A DNA stretch of 64,000 nt from Acarospora socialis (Eukaryota; Ascomycota; Lecanoromycetes; Acarosporales; Acarosporaceae). A program made the translations under genes and the position numbers. Shown here in pieces: positions 52,527 to 64,000 of this stretch (position 1 is its first letter; each line of letters starts with the position of its first letter). Under the pieces are notes generated by a model, which saw only the letters and a list, made by a program, of their open reading frames with translations, searched no databases and had not been told where the DNA came from. The stretch spans positions 620,001-684,000 of the forward strand of contig JAMYGW020000012.1 of NCBI GenBank assembly GCA_025617375.2, written 5' to 3'.

Positions 52527-53879
52527 CTAGCTGACTGAAGTTGCAGGAGGCTCCCAAACCCTCTCCTGCGCCGTGAACATATCTCGCGCCTGGTCATGCC
52601 GCTCGCACTTGTTCTTGGAGAGTATTCTCGAGCGCGAATAGGTCCAATGCTTCACTTGGGCATACTGTGACCACATCAATTCCGTCCTGCCTTGGAACCA
52701 GCACTTTCCGCAAATCCCAGCCTCGGACTCGAGAAGGCCCTGGATGAGCTCTATCACCGGCAATAACCGCGCTCGGAGTCCGCAGTGTGAGTGATGCTTG
52801 TCAATTTGGTATGACGGACACTGACGCAGCTTATCAAGCAGCTTGTCGATTGACCCAATAAAGAATTGAGAGTCGCTGTCATCGTATATCATACCTTGTA
52901 AGCGTAACGTCCCAACGCGAGTGAAGAAGCGGACCATTTCGCCAAGTTGAAAGGAGTCACACTGAGCAGACGAATCATACCCAAGCTTGCACTGGCGCTG
53001 TTTCGAGGTATAGGCCTTCAGGAAATAGCTTTGTATATCGTTGAGAGTGTTTAGTATAGATTCGCGGCGGTAGATCAATTCCTCTGAGAACGTCAGTTGT
53101 CGAGTTGACTGAGAAGTGGACATCGACGTACCTTCAAGCCCGTTAGGTAGCGTCCACCAAAGCGCCCTCAGTCCTTCATCAACACTTTCTGGTTCAGCAT
53201 ACCAGCGCTGGGACCCATGATTGACCAATAGCGCTGTACAGGATGTGATCCATTGCGGAATATTGAGGTGCATGCCGCTGAATAATATTTGGCGTATCGG
53301 CTCCTCCTTGTATGTCGAGTTGAGCCACTTTGTTGCGAAGGCGTTATATAGGCCCTGATGCTTCCTCACGAGATCCCGAATACTGTGTAAACCATCAAAC
53401 CTATCCGCAACGACAACAAGGTTGGCAAGCCAGGAAGGAGTGAGCTGGTGCCCCTGATGGTAAACCCCATGTAAGATCCTCAGGAAGGTAGTCATTGACC
53501 ACTCATATCGAACACGACTTGACAACAGCCCAATGTCCGTAATCGATATGTGGGGCAGCTCATTGGGGGGTACATCTCGCCAAGATCGATATCGGTCTCG
53601 CAGCGTTCTCTGTACCGCGCTCACACGCACGCCTTCGCTGAATTTCTCAGGGTCGAGCAAGTTCCGGAAGTAGAGGGAAGACGCCCGCAGCTCGGTCGTA
53701 GTCACCAGGTACAATATGTGCTCCTTCCCGAATGAGGTCTCCACGTCCAGTACGAGATCAGCATCGTCCTTGATGCTTATGACCCGTCCACGTTCCGACC
53801 AGCTGTTGCTGGAGGTGTGTTTCTCCGACTTTATGTCTTCAGGCGCAGCATCGTCCGTGGTTGATGCAATTGACAGCAT
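52527..53879 (-). CDS. BTB/POZ-like hypothetical protein
   Basis: The minus strand is open for 450 codons from MLSIASTTDDAAPEDIKSEK. A 48-nt segment at 53084-53131 has donor GTACGT, a CTGAC branch site and a CAG acceptor, keeps the frame when removed and joins TLPNGLE-EELIYRRESIL. I think it is a real intron, giving exons 53132-53879 and 52527-53083 and 434 aa. The N-terminal DADLVLDVETSFGKEHILYLVTTTELRASSLYFRNLLDPEKFSEG has the layout of a BTB fold (D-vL-v ... f-vhs--L---S-yFr-ll). The following MTTFLRILHGVYHQG ... LANLVVVADRFDGLHSIRDL resembles a BACK-like helical part. Such proteins are numerous in fungi; partner and role are unknown. A C-terminal CGKCW and KCERH pair might bind metal. Confidence 0.72.
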   Translation of the reverse strand: MLSIASTTDDAAPEDIKSEKHTSSNSWSERGRVISIKDDADLVLDVETSFGKEHILYLVTTTELRASSLYFRNLLDPEKFSEGVRVSAVQRTLRDRYRSWRDVPPNELPHISITDIGLLSSRVRYEWSMTTFLRILHGVYHQGHQLTPSWLANLVVVADRFDGLHSIRDLVRKHQGLYNAFATKWLNSTYKEEPIRQILFSGMHLNIPQWITSCTALLVNHGSQRWYAEPESVDEGLRALWWTLPNGLEGTSMSTSQSTRQLTFSEELIYRRESILNTLNDIQSYFLKAYTSKQRQCKLGYDSSAQCDSFQLGEMVRFFTRVGTLRLQGMIYDDSDSQFFIGSIDKLLDKLRQCPSYQIDKHHSHCGLRARLLPVIELIQGLLESEAGICGKCWFQGRTELMWSQYAQVKHWTYSRSRILSKNKCERHDQARDMFTAQERVWEPPATSVS

Positions 53880-54537: not shown

Positions 54538-55938
54538 TCATGAATCAATGCTTTTGATCGTGGCCTTTACGCCTTCTTCTTCGCTCTTTGTTTTATCAGG
54601 TTCGGAGGTTTCTCTGCCTTGAGTGCACTCTTCGCTTCTCGTACTGGCGGCCTCGGATACAAACTCAGGCTTTCGCTTCAGGAACGGCCAATGCCCCCGT
54701 CTTTCGTTGTATCGCATAGCCAGGAACGTTGTTATGACGCAGACCCAGTACAGGTTGTACGAGATAACGGAGCCATAGGTTGCGGAGTTCTGCCATCCAA
54801 GAATGGCGTTGAAGATACCCCAGCCTCCTCCGCCGTTGATTGTCGGGCTACAGCACTATGAGGATAGATCAGAGACGAAGAGGGAAGACAGGACGAAAGA
54901 CAAAATCATCTGACTCACGTCTACGTGCCAAACGCTTTGACGGATGTCATACGAGCCCGGGCCGGAACCCGACTCCACTGCACCGCTTCCTGCTAGTGAG
55001 CTCCACTTGGGCTGGATTAGTCGACACTCTATTCTCAACCTCTACAGGTACTTACCTTGTGCGTCTCGAATCTCCATACTCCTTTGGAGAAAAGGCCGGC
55101 GGCAACGAGATAGAGGCAGCAGGTCGAGACGATCAGGAACGTCTGGATGGATGCGAGGTTCCCGCCTCTGGCGCGAAGTTTAGTATACTTTGTCAGGCAG
55201 AAGGGTAAAGTTAAGACAACAACTTACTTGAAAATGAGGAACCCAACAAAACATCCACCCGCGATACCAACGACAACTGGTATAGGAAAGGAGGTAGCGG
55301 GAAACCCAAGGCTAACACCACCGATGAAGACTACAGCTTCGAGACCTTCCCTGAGGATGGTGACGAAAGGAAGTAAGAACATGGCATACTTCTCGCACCA
55401 TCTTTTGAACCGGTTGCGTGAGTTGCCTTTGGTGGTATCCTTCTCTTCAAGGGCTTTGGCAAGCTTTATCCGCCATTTGTCTTGGAGCTTGGACACGCGA
55501 AGCAGTGCAGCGCCCATAAGGGTGATAATAATGGAAGAGACAAGGCTGAAGACTCCCTCCCAGATGTTCTCCGCGCCTTCCCAGTGGTTTTTGCCTAGGC
55601 CATAGAACGCACCGATCATACCGGCACCGATCACGATACAGACAACCAGGCCAAGGATCGTGCCCCACCACACCTGCACGATGTCAGTTGTCAGAGGCTG
55701 CGATCAGCGGATACTCAATGGGTTGAGAGATTATCTTACCTGTCTTACGAGTTTCTTGTACATTGTTGCATCCCGATCCGGGCTCAGGGTCTGCTTTAAG
55801 AAAGCCAACAGAATAGCGACAATGATGCCGGTCTCAATGGTTTCTCGAAGACATATGAAGAACACTGTTGGATGGGGTCAACAATGACCCTTTTAAGGCG
55901 GGTCCAGACTCACCAGGAACTGCAAACACGTTCACCAT
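54538..55938 (-). CDS. FTR1: High-affinity iron permease Ftr1
   Basis: Six exons (55914-55938, 55740-55864, 55228-55673, 55056-55167, 54919-55005, 54538-54855) give 370 aa. The start [23 protein letters not shown] carries the first REXXE iron motif (RETIE, residues 15-19). [19 protein letters not shown] carries the second (REGLE, about 157-161). Seven hydrophobic helices are visible, and the last exons give [20 protein letters not shown] and a cytoplasmic Glu/Lys-rich tail. Ftr1 passes iron across the plasma membrane after oxidation by Fet3, with which it assembles. The gene is divergent from FET3, 1,275 bp apart, with GATA-type iron-regulatory sites in between. All six junctions restore frame and family sequence. 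Confidence 0.96.
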
Positions 55939-57213: not shown

Positions 57214-59280
57214 ATGCGTCTCTTACAATCGAACCTGCTCGCTAGATATGCTGTCTTTCTTCTATACCTCAGCTCCCTTGTTTGTGGCGCTGTTGTCACC
57301 TACGATTTTAATATCACCTGGGTCACAACAAACCCTGACGGTGCTTTCGAACGTCCTACCATTGGTATCAACGGCCAATGGCCAATACCCCAGATCAGGG
57401 TTACCGTAGGAGACAGTGTTGTGGTCAATGTCAACAATCAGCTCGGCAATCAGAGCACAAGCCTGCACTTCCACGGGCTCTTCATGAATGGAACCACCCA
57501 TATGGATGGACCTGTGGGTACAAGTCAGTGCTCAATACCTCCGGGCAGCTCCTTCAGATATGAGTTTAAGGTACGCCTTCTTACCGACCCAGCGAGCTTT
57601 TTCAACGCTTTTCTGACAGTTCTAGGTTGACCAACCCGGGACCTACTGGTACCATTCACATGACTCCGGGCAATATCCGGATGGCCTTCGTGGCGCATTC
57701 ATTGTCGAGGATTCTAAATCTCCCTACAAGGGTCTTTACGACGAGGAAATCGTTCTTACTGTGTCAGACTGGTACCACGATCAAATGCGGCCTCTACTGA
57801 AGAATTTCGTCAGCGTCATCAATCCTACAGGTGCCGAGCCAGTACCCAACGGAGCACTTATGAACGATACGCAAAACATGACGATCCCGGTCGAAGCCGG
57901 TAAAACATATATGTTCCGTATGATCAACATGGGCGCCTTCGCCGGACAGTACCTGTGGTTTGAAGGTCACACCATGCGTATCGTTGAGGTTGACGGTATC
58001 TACACTGAGCCAGCCGAAGCGGATATGATCTACATAACCACAGCGCAGCGATATAGCGTACTGGTCACCATGAAGAATACCACGGATTCGAACTTTGCAA
58101 TCGTCGGCAGCATGGACCAGGTAAGTATTCTTTCGACACCAGTCTGTGAGGAATAAAGCTAAACCATGTTGAAGACTCTCTTCGACACTATCCCGCCCGG
58201 TCTGAACCCCAACGTCACTGGCTGGCTTTTGTACGATAAAACCAAGGACTTACCCCAACCGGCTCTGCTCGACGACTTTGATGCCTTTGACGATTTTACT
58301 CTGGTCCCTACTGATGGTATGGAGACATATGACTCAGTGGACCATTCCATAACGCTCGATGTTAAGATGGACAATTTGGGTGATGGTGCAAACTAGTCAG
58401 TCTCGAGAACGATACGAATTTGTATGGTCTCTAACCATACTCCTAGTGCCTTTTTCAATAATATAACGTATGTCCGCCCTAAGGTGCCTACACTTTACTC
58501 CGTCATGTCTTCTGGTCCTTTGGCCACCAACATCGAAATCTACGGAACCAACACAAATGCTTTCATTCTCAAGAAGAATGAGATTGTTGAGATCATACTC
58601 AACAACAATGATGGAGGCAGACATCCATTCCACCTCCACGGCCACACTTTTCAGACCGTTACCAGATCCGAGGAAGAAGCCGGCTTCTACAACGGCAATG
58701 TGACGCTTCCAAAGGTGCCAATGCGAAGGGACACTATCATGGTGAATCCGAACGGGAACATTGTGCTTCGTTTCAAGGCGGACAATCCAGATAAGTACCC
58801 GCCAGCATGCTGTGCTCTTCGCCTGCTGACGATTTCGTCCACGTGTCTGGCTATTCCACTGTCACATTGAATGGCACGTGGCTTCCGGTCTCGTAGTCAC
58901 GATGATCGAGGCGCCCGAGGAGTTGCAGAAAAGTCTTGTTATACCCCAAGAACATTTGCAAGTGTGCCACGAACAGGGTCTACCAACATCTGGCAACGCT
59001 GCCGGCAACACGAAAGACCTACTGGACTTGACAGGCGCCAATTTTTCACCAGCACCGCTGCCGGCTGGCTTCACAGCGCGGGGCATTGTGGCGCTTGTGT
59101 TCAGTTGCTTAAGTGCAATCTTGGGGATGGCCGCCATTGCATGGTAAATGTTTTCAAGCGGGCTTGACTTCCTGTTTCACGATGCTGACCCTTTCTGGCA
59201 GGTATGGTGTGGGCGAGATTGGAGCATCAGAGCTTGCATCGGCGAAGAAGCGAATTGCCAAGGCTGGCATCGAATTGTAG
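57214..59280 (+). CDS. FET3: Multicopper ferroxidase Fet3
   Basis: Six exons (57214-57570, 57626-58120, 58175-58395, 58447-58790, 58843-59143, 59202-59280) give 598 aa. The signal peptide is [20 protein letters not shown] onward. Copper ligands: LHFHGLF (about 84-90), [10 protein letters not shown] (about 126-135), HPFHLHGH (about 416-423) and HCHIEWH (about 478-484), with Leu in the type-1 axial position as in Fet3. A membrane helix at about 548-572 ([20 protein letters not shown]) anchors the ectodomain. Fet3 oxidises Fe(II) at the cell surface and hands Fe(III) to Ftr1. The fourth exon-exon join, between 58790 and 58843, works only with an intron starting AT and ending AC; the other four introns are GT-AG. 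Both sides of that join agree perfectly with the family, so the gene looks functional. Confidence 0.95.
58791..58842 (+). other. Putative AT-AC intron in FET3
   Basis: A 52-nt segment begins ATAAGTA, contains CTGAC at 58826-58830 and ends CCAC. Removing it joins CCAG to GTGTCTGG and gives [15 protein letters not shown] in frame. The donor is a normal U2-type sequence with its first G replaced by A. It does not resemble the ATATCCTT start of U12-type introns. The branch A lies 13 nt before the end, as in other introns of this window. Confidence 0.75.
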
Positions 59281-59724: not shown

Positions 59725-61043
59725 ATGCCAGCCTCTCGACATCCAACCCTCACTCAATCATTCTCCAACCGCGCCTCCCTCCCAAATACCCACCCCCTAA
59801 CAGCCTACCTCCTCAACCTCATAACGATCAAACAGTCCAACCTCTGCGTCTCCGCCGACGTCTGCAGCACCGCCGCACTCATCCAGCTGGCCGAAGACGT
59901 CGGCGACTCAATATGCATCTTAAAAACCCACGCCGACATCGTCGATGACTGGAGCGAGCGGACGGTCCGACGCCTAAAGGAAATCAGTAGACAGAAAGGC
60001 TTCCTCCTGTTCGAGGACCGAAAGTTCGGTGACATAGGAAGTTAGCGCCCCTGCGCCCCATCCCCTTCTCAATTTCCTCATACCAGAGAAACAAAAGCTG
60101 ACCGCATCCCCAACCAGGCACCGTGCAGAAACAATACACCTCGGGCCACCACCGCATCGCGACCTGGGCGCCGCTCGTGAATGCACACATCTTCCCGGGC
60201 CCCTCCATCATCACCGCCCTCCAAGAAGCCGCCGCCGCAACGCTTACGTCCCTGAACCAGAGCGTCTCGACCGAGATCTCCGCCGGCACGCCGCGCACCT
60301 CCTCCGACGGCGACTACTTCTCGCACTCGGACGACGACGACATGGACGAGCGCGAAGACGGTGGCGCGGGCAAATACAGCAGCACGGGCCGCAAACGCAG
60401 CATCGTGACGGCGACGACGATCAGTCAGTATACGGAGCGGACGGTGCAGCAGACGCCCGTCATCATCCCGCGGAGCGTGCCGGACGACTACTACAACGGC
60501 GACGAGGAGGATGACGAGGGCGAGGATGACGACAGCGACGAGGAGGGCAAGGGCAGGGCGCGAGCGGGCAAGCAGCGGCAGATGTCCGTCGAGCTGACCG
60601 AAGCGCCCGTCGCGCGCGGCCTGCTCTTGCTCGCCGAAATGAGCTCCGAAGGCAACCTGCTGACGGGCCCGTACACGCGCCGCTGCGTCGACCTCGCGCG
60701 CCAGCATCGCGATTTCGTCCTCGGTTTCGTCGCGCAGCGCGGTTTGAACGCCGAGCCGGGCGATAATTTCATTTCGTTCACGCCGGGCGTCTCGCTTCCG
60801 CCGCCGCCGGCTGATGGCGAGGAGGAGGGCGAGTCGGCGGGGATGGGTGCGAGGGCGATGGGGGATGGGTTGGGACAGCAGTATAGGACGCCGAGGATGG
60901 TGGTGTTGGAGGAGGGGTGTGATGTCGTTATCGTGGGGAGGGGGATCTTGAAGGCGAGGGATCGGAAAAGGGAGGCGGAGAGGTATCGGGTTGAGGCGTG
61001 GAGGGCTTATGAGGAGAGGGTGAGGGGTGGGAAGAGGAAGTAG
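59725..61043 (+). CDS. URA3: Orotidine-5'-phosphate decarboxylase
   Basis: Two exons (59725-60040, 60118-61043) give 413 aa. The enzyme converts OMP to UMP, last step of de novo pyrimidine synthesis. Motifs: LCVSADVCST, ICILKTHADIVDDW and the catalytic FEDRKFGDIG-S, then TSGHHRIATWAPLVNAHIFP, ARGLLLLAEMSSEGNLL, FVLGFVAQR, FISFTPGV and, at the end, EEGCDVVIVGRGIL. A low-complexity acidic/Ser-rich insertion of about 115 residues (roughly 150-265) sits between NAHIFPGP and EAPVARG. An insertion here is usual for filamentous fungi compared with the 267-aa yeast Ura3. The intron has an unusual GTTAGC donor. The opposite strand is open as a 354-codon shadow. Confidence 0.96.
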
Positions 61044-61344: not shown

Positions 61345-64000
61345 TCACACTACCTCAGAACCTCCCGCATCCTTCCTTCCAACCCTCAACTTCAACCTCA
61401 CTTTCCTACTCTCCTCTTGCTTGTATAATTCCCTCTCACTGCTCTCACTCTCATCCTCCCCATCTCTGCCCCTCTCCCCTACCCTCAACTTCAGCATCAC
61501 CCTCACCCTCTCTCCTCCCTTCTCCATCTCAACCCCCTCACCGCACAACCCCGACCTCATCAACTCCTCCTCAACCCTCCCATCCACAACGCCCAACACC
61601 TGACTCAACTCCCGTCCCTTGACCTCCTTCCTCGTAACTTCCACCACCAGTCCGCCGATCTCCATGATCCCCATACTCGTCTCTCCCTCTCCTTTTCCAT
61701 CCCACTCCACCTCTTCCTCTGCCCCTTGCCTTCCCCTATCGTCACCATCCCCATCCTCCCACTTACGCAAAACATCAACCACCACCTCACCATCCTCTTG
61801 ATCAGGATACCCATAATCCAACCCATTCCTTTCCATAAACCCCCTATTCCCCTCCACACAAAACATCCGCTGATAACAAACAACCGCCTTCCATCTCCGC
61901 AGCGCAAACATCTGCGGCGACGAGAGCGTGTAGTGGCCCGAGGGGTGGGAGCGCGTTTCGGCGTGGATGAAGTGGGCTATGGGCGCTAGTGCGGGGTGGG
62001 AGGTGGAGTTGGTGGAGGTGGGAGGAGGGGGAAGGTGTGGAAGGTACTCGTGGGTGTGTGCTGGAGAGGAAGAGAGAGAGGGGGTGCGGGGGCGCTTGAG
62101 TGGGGTTTGATTTTGCGGGTGAGGATAGGTGGGGGAGTCGGAGTCGGGTGGACCGTCGAAGGAAGCGATGGTGTCTGAGGGATAGCCGCGAGAAGGGGAG
62201 GCGGGGGCGCAGGTGGGACAGTACCAGGGTTCTGGAAGCGCACACGGTAGGTTAGCTGGATAGGGTACGATGGACAAGTCATGGTGGAGGGTGGAGAAGG
62301 GCGCTTATACGTACCGTCCTGTTCCGGCATCGCGGCCAAGTCCGTACAGCGGAGATGGAACCAGCCGACCAGGCAGTATTCCCCGTCGCACTGGATCATG
62401 TCCTGCTCGTCGCCGGGCTGCTGGCAGACACACCAGTGTTCTGGCACGGGCACTGGGAGGTGGCCGCGCTCCGTGCTGAGAGCGGGGAGACCGGCGTCGA
62501 CGACACCTCGCTGCAATTTGGAACGGGTCCTGGTTCCTTTGCCAACCGGCGACCTTGGGCTAATTGAGTGAGCGTCCTCGACGCGGGGTAAAGATCGACC
62601 TTTGCCATCCCGTGCTGGTGGACGAGCGCGACTTCCCGCTAGGGATTGGTGTCTGAAGATAGCGGCTGCGCCGATGGTGTCGAGTGTTCCGTCTTCTAGT
62701 AGTTTGCGTTTCTTCGATATCGCTCCTTTTGCTGTCTTTGAGTTGAGGTCCCGGACAGTGAGCTCGACTTCTCTTTGGCGGCGGAGAGGGTGCGGTCTGG
62801 CATGGGCTAATATTTTAGGGGACTTGTTGAGTGGATAGGAATGGGTTAATTCGTCGCCTGATATCTCGGTGATGTAGCCGCTATCGGTGCCGAGGGCATT
62901 TAGATGCCATTCGGATGCTTTGCAAGTCGGTACAGGGGTGACTGTTGGTTGTGCCAGTCTAGTCGTGGTTGGTGTCGTGTATGTAACGCTGTTGCTGCCG
63001 TTCTCCATTGTAGTTGAAGTGGGATCATCTGCTGGATGAATGCTAGCAGAGCGGACGTTTTGCGGCATTGAGCATGAACTCGCGGTGGGCTGTCGAAGAG
63101 GTAGCTTGGACGATGCGCCTTCATTAGCTTCTTGCTCTTCTGTTACTGTCGCTCTCACTTCCATTGCAGCCTGCCGTATCGTAGCTTGACCGACTCCTTC
63201 TCGGTTTCTGGCTGGTGGTAGAGGTATGTCGGTGACCATTCCGTCTAGGCTCAAAGGAGGTCTTCGACTCATCTTCTTTGCTATAATGGTGAATGGTTTC
63301 TGTACGTTGGAGTTGCTCTTGAATCGTCTCGTATTGGTAATTTTCTCTTCGTTTGACAGGGTCGAAAATGAGCTTCCTGCTATACTTGGTGTGTCAAAGG
63401 CTTTTTCTGTAGGTTGCTCACCTTGTATTGAGTGAGGTCTGCTTAGCCAAGGTTCCACTTTCTTCGAACCCTGCATTGTGACCAACTTCAAACCAACCTC
63501 TTCAACATCTCCAGGTTGTGTCTTAGCTGTAGCTGATTTTGTCGGCTTCTTAGGACCTCGTATGAAAAGCTTCGCCCTCTTCCGGAGAGGGCCAAGGCTA
63601 CTCAGATCTGGATGATGGGTGGTATCGACTGAGCTTCGCTCTTCAGGAAGACCGAGATGCTCGGGATCTACATGTTCGCCTTTACGCTGTGAGCCCCGAC
63701 GCCGGGACCGCTTCACCTGCGGCTTCACCTGCGGCTTCCCGTGTAGCATTCCGACTCCTCTCCAGAGATCTTCAACACAAGTGAGACAGTACCATGTGAC
63801 ACGAGCTTCGCCTTTTCCACACAAGTCATCTTTGACCTTTCCGACACACCGTTCGATGATATGAGCTGTATGTAAAGGCTCAGTGGGTACAACAGCACGC
63901 TTCATATTTTCTTTCGGCTCCAAACTCAGGCGGTATGATGCCGGCAGGCTGTGCGTTTGCGGTGCTGGGCAGTAAGGGTGAGCACAGGTGACGATCTTGG
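61345..64000 (-). CDS. PHD-finger protein (N terminus outside the window)
   Basis: Two exons visible (62315 to beyond 64000, and 61345-62231), joined as AAMPEQD-EPWYCPTCAP. The PHD finger is ING-like: HWCVCQQPGDEQDMIQCDGE, YCLVGWFHLRCTDL, WYCPTC, a complete C4-H-C3 set. Such fingers read histone H3K4 methylation, and the aromatic M-x-C-D and W-F-H residues fit. A second Cys-rich region near the window edge (TCAHPYCPAPQ ... ERCVGKVKDDLCGKG ... TWYCLTCVEDLW) could be another zinc module. Between them lie about 450 mostly disordered, basic residues (KRSRRRGSQRKGEH, KKRKLLEDG). The C-terminal 250 residues include FALRRWKAVVCYQRMFCVEG and highly charged repeats of 'VRVMLKLRVGE'/'VRLKLRVGR'. Probably a nuclear chromatin protein; the orthologue is not clear to me. 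Confidence 0.82.

Follow-up and report, generated by a model that had tools for sequence, protein, structure and literature searches.

Among the described systems, the closest to the intron reported here are the U2-dependent AT-AC introns of animal sodium channels, such as intron 21 of SCN4A, which also run from AT to AC, carry a U2-type donor (G at +5) and branch, and are common to paralogous genes, as the AT-AC intron of FET3 is (passages of PMC2831892). The same passages argue that these introns are trapped, as switching needs both ends at once, and give U2-type AT-AC introns as derived from U12 introns. The FET3 introns differ from SCN4A intron 21 in being found in an ascomycete, in their length of 52-57 nt and in apparently being spread over several fungal classes; other classes have GT donors at the codon where the FET3 intron lies, and dependence of the FET3 introns on U1, U2 and U6 is a prediction. 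U12-dependent AT-AC introns share the terminal dinucleotides, but the donor and the branch of the FET3 intron are different. In yeast, Parker and Siliciano (1993) reportedly obtained ACT1-type G1A/G-1C suppression, in which A-C in place of G-G restores splicing. That pair is a laboratory mutation, whereas the A-C pair of FET3 is natural and appears to be old. The suppression work is cited in PMC8283771 and PMC10711555, and PMC13326754 describes A-C as isosteric with G-G and AT-AC as acceptable to U2 spliceosomes.

For fungi, AT-AC introns are given as fewer than CT-AC introns in annotations (PMC7072748, in part), as present in ESTs of Phycomyces and Rhizopus without being classed as U12 (PMC2846911, in part), and as 0.09-5.19% of the used sites in one RNA-seq study of fungal pathogens (PMC6176087, in part). 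No report of an AT-AC intron in FET3 was found in open full-text papers. The FET3 intron is of a known kind, in what appears to be an unusually old and widespread case: a natural and long-kept A-C end pair, present in three genes, in a fungal group reported to be without convincing minor introns.

The FET3A locus

The window is a stretch of 64,000 nucleotides on contig C12 of the Acarospora socialis genome (31.1 Mb, 38 contigs), where the intron site of FET3A is present once. The features considered are the following, the paralogues mentioned being those on contigs C7 and C8.

57214..59280, + strand: predicted FET3 (FET3A) ferroxidase gene, six exons, 598 codons in the joined frame
58447..58790, + strand: exon 4, ending in ...ADNP plus base 1 of a Gly codon
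58791..58842, + strand: AT-AC intron of 52 nt in phase 1, ranked first among 12,800 excisions
58791..58796, + strand: 5' splice site ATAAGT, its six bases identical in the C7 and C8 paralogues
58826..58830, + strand: branch-site-like CTGAC with A at 58829, a putative branch
58840..58842, + strand: 3' splice site CAC, also found in both paralogues
58843..59143, + strand: exon 5, starting with the rest of the Gly codon
55032..55865, - strand: FTR1 iron permease, matched part (PF03239 at C12:675032-675865; Pfam on window ORF 55227-55679)

The predicted protein contains three Cu-oxidase domains and copper-binding blocks (cupredoxin-type, by domain search). Its closest solved structure is yeast Fet3p (1zpu, 588 bits), of the same ferroxidase family, the intron before HCHIEWH having AT-AC ends in FET3A. 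The nearest named protein, among the best 120 of 3,293 full-length relatives, is from Psora testacea (Lecanorales), with 74% identity. FTR1 lies upstream of FET3A in divergent orientation, the usual arrangement of the high-affinity iron-uptake pair, and no second FTR1 locus was found in the genome.

The AT-AC intron is the fourth of the gene, with the junctions CCAG|ATAAGTACC...CCTGCTGACGATTTCGTCCAC|GTGTCTGG. It starts with ATAAGTACC and ends with GCTGACGATTTCGTCCAC, and 13 nt lie 3' of the A of its CTGAC. The other four introns are GT-AG (57571-57625, 58121-58174, 58396-58446 and 59144-59201), and excision of all five leaves 598 stop-free codons with the copper blocks intact.

Of 120 listed relatives, 111 are regular at the junction; from these a profile of 47 residues was built, and every removal of 25-109 nt was scored against it. 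For FET3A this gave 12,800 excisions, 7,685 of them stop-free and 84 of these GT-AG or GC-AG. The AT-AC excision ranks first with 177.9 bits, the profile-building relatives themselves (n = 111) scoring 144.3-185.9 bits (median 174.2), while the top GT-AG or GC-AG excision reaches 43.6 bits and loses HCHIEWH. Neighbouring excisions shifted from the AT-AC one score at most 169.1 bits because the conserved Gly is altered. At neither end do exon and intron bases match, so that any shift of the boundary would alter the message. The observation of an AT-AC intron in FET3A is correct: the original prediction had placed it at exactly these coordinates, where sequence and joined frame agree, and its statements that no GT-AG or GC-AG pair is workable and that the ATAAGT donor, CTGAC branch and AC acceptor give a 598-codon gene in phase were borne out by the full enumeration.

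Two paralogues and a genome-wide search

The pattern ATAAGT..CTRAC..CAC is not enriched genome-wide, with 154 matches against 362 for the backwards control pattern. We inspected 70 loci among the matches listed, some overlapping or multiple, plus the FET3A and FET3B loci, about half of the 154. Joined frames that stay open for 30 or more codons to each side numbered 16 at the inspected loci: two are FET3A and FET3B, two are other frames of the FET3B locus, and the remaining 12 were unconvincing by eye. The pattern covered one donor/acceptor type, and the genome may hold more AT-AC introns.

FET3B carries its intron at C7:1670319-1670375, matched by the pattern in a FET3-like gene that is independently matched by PF07731, with the junctions NP G|ATAAGTACCCTGC...AAGCTGACCGACGATGCAC|GC GTC TGG. 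In FET3C, the intron is on the minus strand at C8:966018-966070 (53 nt, locus L004), also fits the pattern, and has the junctions NP G|ATAAGTCCCCCGCC...GTACTGACCGCATACAC|GC ATC TGG. The AT-AC excision was first of 13,225 in both genes, with 127.8 bits in FET3B (best GT-AG or GC-AG excision, -15.3) and 107.6 bits in FET3C (best of 60 such pairs, -24.2). A GT-AG or GC-AG solution was rejected on these scores for all three FET3 genes.

The three genes have the AT-AC intron at the identical codon and phase, all with an ATAAGT donor and a CAC acceptor, and with CTGAC leaving 13, 12 and 10 nt after its A in FET3A, FET3B and FET3C. The shared termini, codon and phase answer the possibility that the FET3A signature arose by chance. 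Near the site, 35-47 of 81 residues are alike among the proteins, as are 25-33 of 52-53 aligned columns in the interiors of the introns. The paralogues thus appear to be old, and it is unlikely that one intron was recently copied into the others. The intron was absent from the same site in two more distant multicopper oxidases of this genome (L005 and L006). The latter lies on the contig of FET3A (C12:393142-393573, - strand) and has no intron before PYHCHIAWH.

As the intron is predicted from DNA sequence, it could be thought that a sequencing error hides a true GT-AG intron or that the gene has decayed. This is hardly credible, since matched changes at both ends would have had to occur alike in three genes, 598 codons are open with the copper blocks intact, and the signature also occurs in relatives from other sources; the open frame and the two further AT-AC genes led us to discard it.

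AT and GT donors in relatives

The donors of relatives were read from translations, where a G|ATAAGT read-through gives NP-D-K and G|GTAAGT gives NP-G-K. Of 3,293 full-length relatives, the best 120 were compared at the junction; in 111 of them, Psora, Ramalina and Bacidia among these, the annotation is NPG[IV]W, which is uninformative on the intron type. The other nine are irregular at the junction, six of them with NP-D:

Thelocarpon: NPDEASRIW
Ptychographa: NPDNSRIW
Pycnora: NPDKCP
Alectoria: NPDKSP...SPRIW
Candelina: NPDKSP
Watsoniomyces: NPDIRSANCVIRVW
Cornicularia: PPRIW, acceptor side only
Teloschistes: NPAPHYPN...KKGIW, looks GT-AG
Xylona: stretch before the junction missing

The readings DN, DE and DI would fit a gene finder that used as donor the GT at +5/+6 of ATAAGT, ATGAGT and ATATGT. 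P0127, an ORF whose exon segment is identical to that of Ptychographa, reads DKYS. The garbling of public FET3 proteins would be explained by the AT-AC intron at the junction: gene-finding programs misread it, and the copper-binding block comes out wrong in FET3 records of several lichen fungi. Seven such records, each from a named lichen-type fungus, appear to be misannotated here (P0002, P0005, P0008, P0030, P0035, P0044 and P0110).

Two surveys of exon ORFs (best 120 of 457 and best 120 of 149) gave 209 distinct proteins; both queries contained DK, and the ranking favours AT read-throughs. With labels checked by hand, 88 have AT donors, 70 have GT donors at the same codon, 47 are intronless here and four are unclear (P0310, P0313, P0314 and P0326); hand labelling set P0190, P0210 and P0300 as having no intron here and P0235 as GT. 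The residue after NP-D in the 88 AT-type ORFs is K in 77, M in seven, E in three and R in one, corresponding to donors of the ATAAG, ATATG and ATGAG types, and the 70 NP-G ORFs fit a GT read-through. K comes next in 77/88 AT donors vs 15/70 GT donors (Fisher p 1.4e-17, overstated as the sequences are related and the queries had DK). AT introns at this site seem to need an otherwise near-perfect donor. All four whole-intron read-throughs, each AT-type, have an Arg codon before [IV]W; therefore, the last intron base is not G.

A named AT case is P0202 of Puttea exsequens, and the best matches to FET3B (P0241 to P0247) are all AT. Some uninterrupted full-length ORFs resemble AT-type genes closely, P0022 being 92% identical to P0152, and P0028 and P0013 being 90% and 89% identical to Alectoria P0030 over 112 aa; this is suggestive, though no proof, of their being spliced messages of AT-type genes. 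In viral contigs, 21 stretches fit a pattern and none was a relative; bacterial and archaeal contigs gave seven bacterial multicopper oxidases with 27-41% identity, uninformative on the intron.

The unspliced FET3A frame stops early, and its product would have neither HCH nor the membrane anchor. This truncation is what speaks here for the original suggestion that FET3 output may be sensitive to splicing efficiency. Since the intron precedes the copper block in this way, the AT-AC ends might have been retained because slow or conditional splicing tunes FET3 output to iron supply. We consider this quite improbable, because any intron at this position has the same effect, 47 of the 209 surveyed ORFs are intronless here and 70 have GT donors, and trapping accounts for the persistence without a function.

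Distribution and age of the AT-AC pair

AT donors, as read from translations, occur in Lecanoromycetes, both in Lecanorales (Alectoria, Puttea) and in Baeomycetales (Ptychographa), in Candelariomycetes (Candelina, Pycnora), in Lichinomycetes (Watsoniomyces) and in Thelocarpales (Thelocarpon). GT donors are found in ORFs near-identical to those of Trichoderma (P0221 with P0074) and Alternaria (P0239 with P0051), and in P0162 and P0176, grouped with Teloschistaceae. GT-AG is the likelier ancestor because GT donors are present in other classes. The comparison with sister species suggested originally, for dating the change from GT-AG to AT-AC, yielded AT donors in several fungal classes; the direction of change assumed in it is likely and fell short of proof.

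An unrooted and weak tree was made from 116 columns with 96 AT and 70 GT rows, the Xylona protein being left out. It has 5 AT/GT changes vs a mean of 53.2 and a minimum of 44 in 300 shuffles, a figure that measures clustering and not the number of events. The exceptions are the AT row P0261 inside a large GT group, the GT row P0173 beside the AT row P0160, and the Teloschistaceae-like GT rows P0162 and P0176 and Dothideomycete GT rows beside AT rows. Given the positions of P0261, P0173, P0162 and P0176, more than one switch is possible. The Teloschistaceae-like P0162, P0176 and P0088 have GT donors and group near AT-type Lecanoromycetes, where a second double switch, from AT-AC to GT-AG, is possible.

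The number of switches needed depends on the fungal phylogeny, which is disputed. One hypothesis has a single lineage of Candelariomycetes and Lichinomycetes, sister to Eurotiomycetes and Lecanoromycetes; PMC12238968 (2025) splits Candelariomycetes from Lichinomycetes and places the latter, with Thelocarpon, earlier, before the clades of Sordariomycetes and Lecanoromycetes. Independent switches from GT-AG to AT-AC in several fungal lineages and paralogues would agree with this early branching and with the five changes on the weak tree, but every switch takes a matched double change and the AT rows are tightly clustered, and we regard such repeated origin as on balance unlikely. The pair is probably about as old as the divergence of Lecanoromycetes, Candelariomycetes and Lichinomycetes/Thelocarpales, or older. 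As a tentative reading, to which we give somewhat less than an even chance, one double change would have preceded both this divergence and the duplication of FET3A, FET3B and FET3C. The intron would then have been trapped, and lineages would have left this state only by losing it or, rarely, by a second double change, to GT-AG; P0162 and P0176 hint at the latter for Teloschistaceae. The AT-AC pair may supply a rare-change marker for this contested phylogeny. If the single old switch is true, it would mark the disputed branching and be a natural gauge of how difficult the valley from G-G to A-C is to cross.

Splicing machinery and proposed mechanism

We infer the actual splicing of the intron, its machinery and its age. 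In all three FET3 genes the donor beyond +2 is U2-type (AAGT, G at +5), and the fungal U2-type branch CTRAC is present near the 3' end. A search with RNA models found U6 RNA with ACAGAGA and U2 RNA with GTAGTA in the genome, and no match for U6atac and U12 RNA, although the U6atac and U12 models matched no control genome either.

The U12-type donor consensus is ATATCCTT, and the donor here is ATAAGT and not this sequence or [AG]TATCCTT; the branch is CTGAC, and none of the 88 AT-type relatives has DI, the Ile expected from ATATC. On these three points a U12 type was rejected. Removal by the minor spliceosome would agree with AT-AC termini being commonest among U12 introns (PMC7072748, in part), but besides the above the U12 donor is given as RTATCCTT (PMC2846911, in part), U6atac and U12 RNA were not found, with the limit of the models already mentioned, and a pan-eukaryotic survey reports Ascomycota and Basidiomycota without convincing minor introns (PMC10639083). 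We judge it very improbable.

The FET3 intron is very probably a U2-dependent AT-AC intron with an A-C end pair in place of G-G, long held because its exit needs two simultaneous changes. The major (U2) spliceosome would remove 58791-58842 despite the AT start and the AC end: U1 and U6 would read the ordinary remainder of the donor, AAGT (+3 to +6), U2 would recognise the branch CTGAC, and the terminal A and C of the intron would pair during the second step, taking the place of the G-G of GT-AG introns. A single change at either end would block splicing, and the AT-AC pair would persist by this trapping until the intron is lost or, rarely, both ends change together to GT-AG. This U2-type reading with matched end bases, proposed originally as a compensated double change, is upheld by the excision scan, the donor, the branch and the paralogues, and the yeast biology cited with it agrees with PMC8283771, where A-C is the sole replacement of G-G in yeast. 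As the site is apparently GT-AG, AT-AC or intronless across related fungi, the trapping idea is testable by phylogeny and by four-way swaps of the end bases.

Other genes in the window

Two further ORFs of the window have no Pfam or NCBIfam match, one of 450 codons (52527-53879, - strand) and one of 645 codons (61986-63923, - strand), the second with a stretch, CVCQQPGDEQDMIQCDGEYCLVGWFHLRC, which we take to be PHD-finger-like. Directly downstream of FET3A, an OMP decarboxylase (URA3/pyrG) is found at 59725-61043 (+ strand), with an intron near 60043-60120 and, within the enzyme, a long insert of acidic, low-complexity sequence (SDDDDMDEREDGGAG...).
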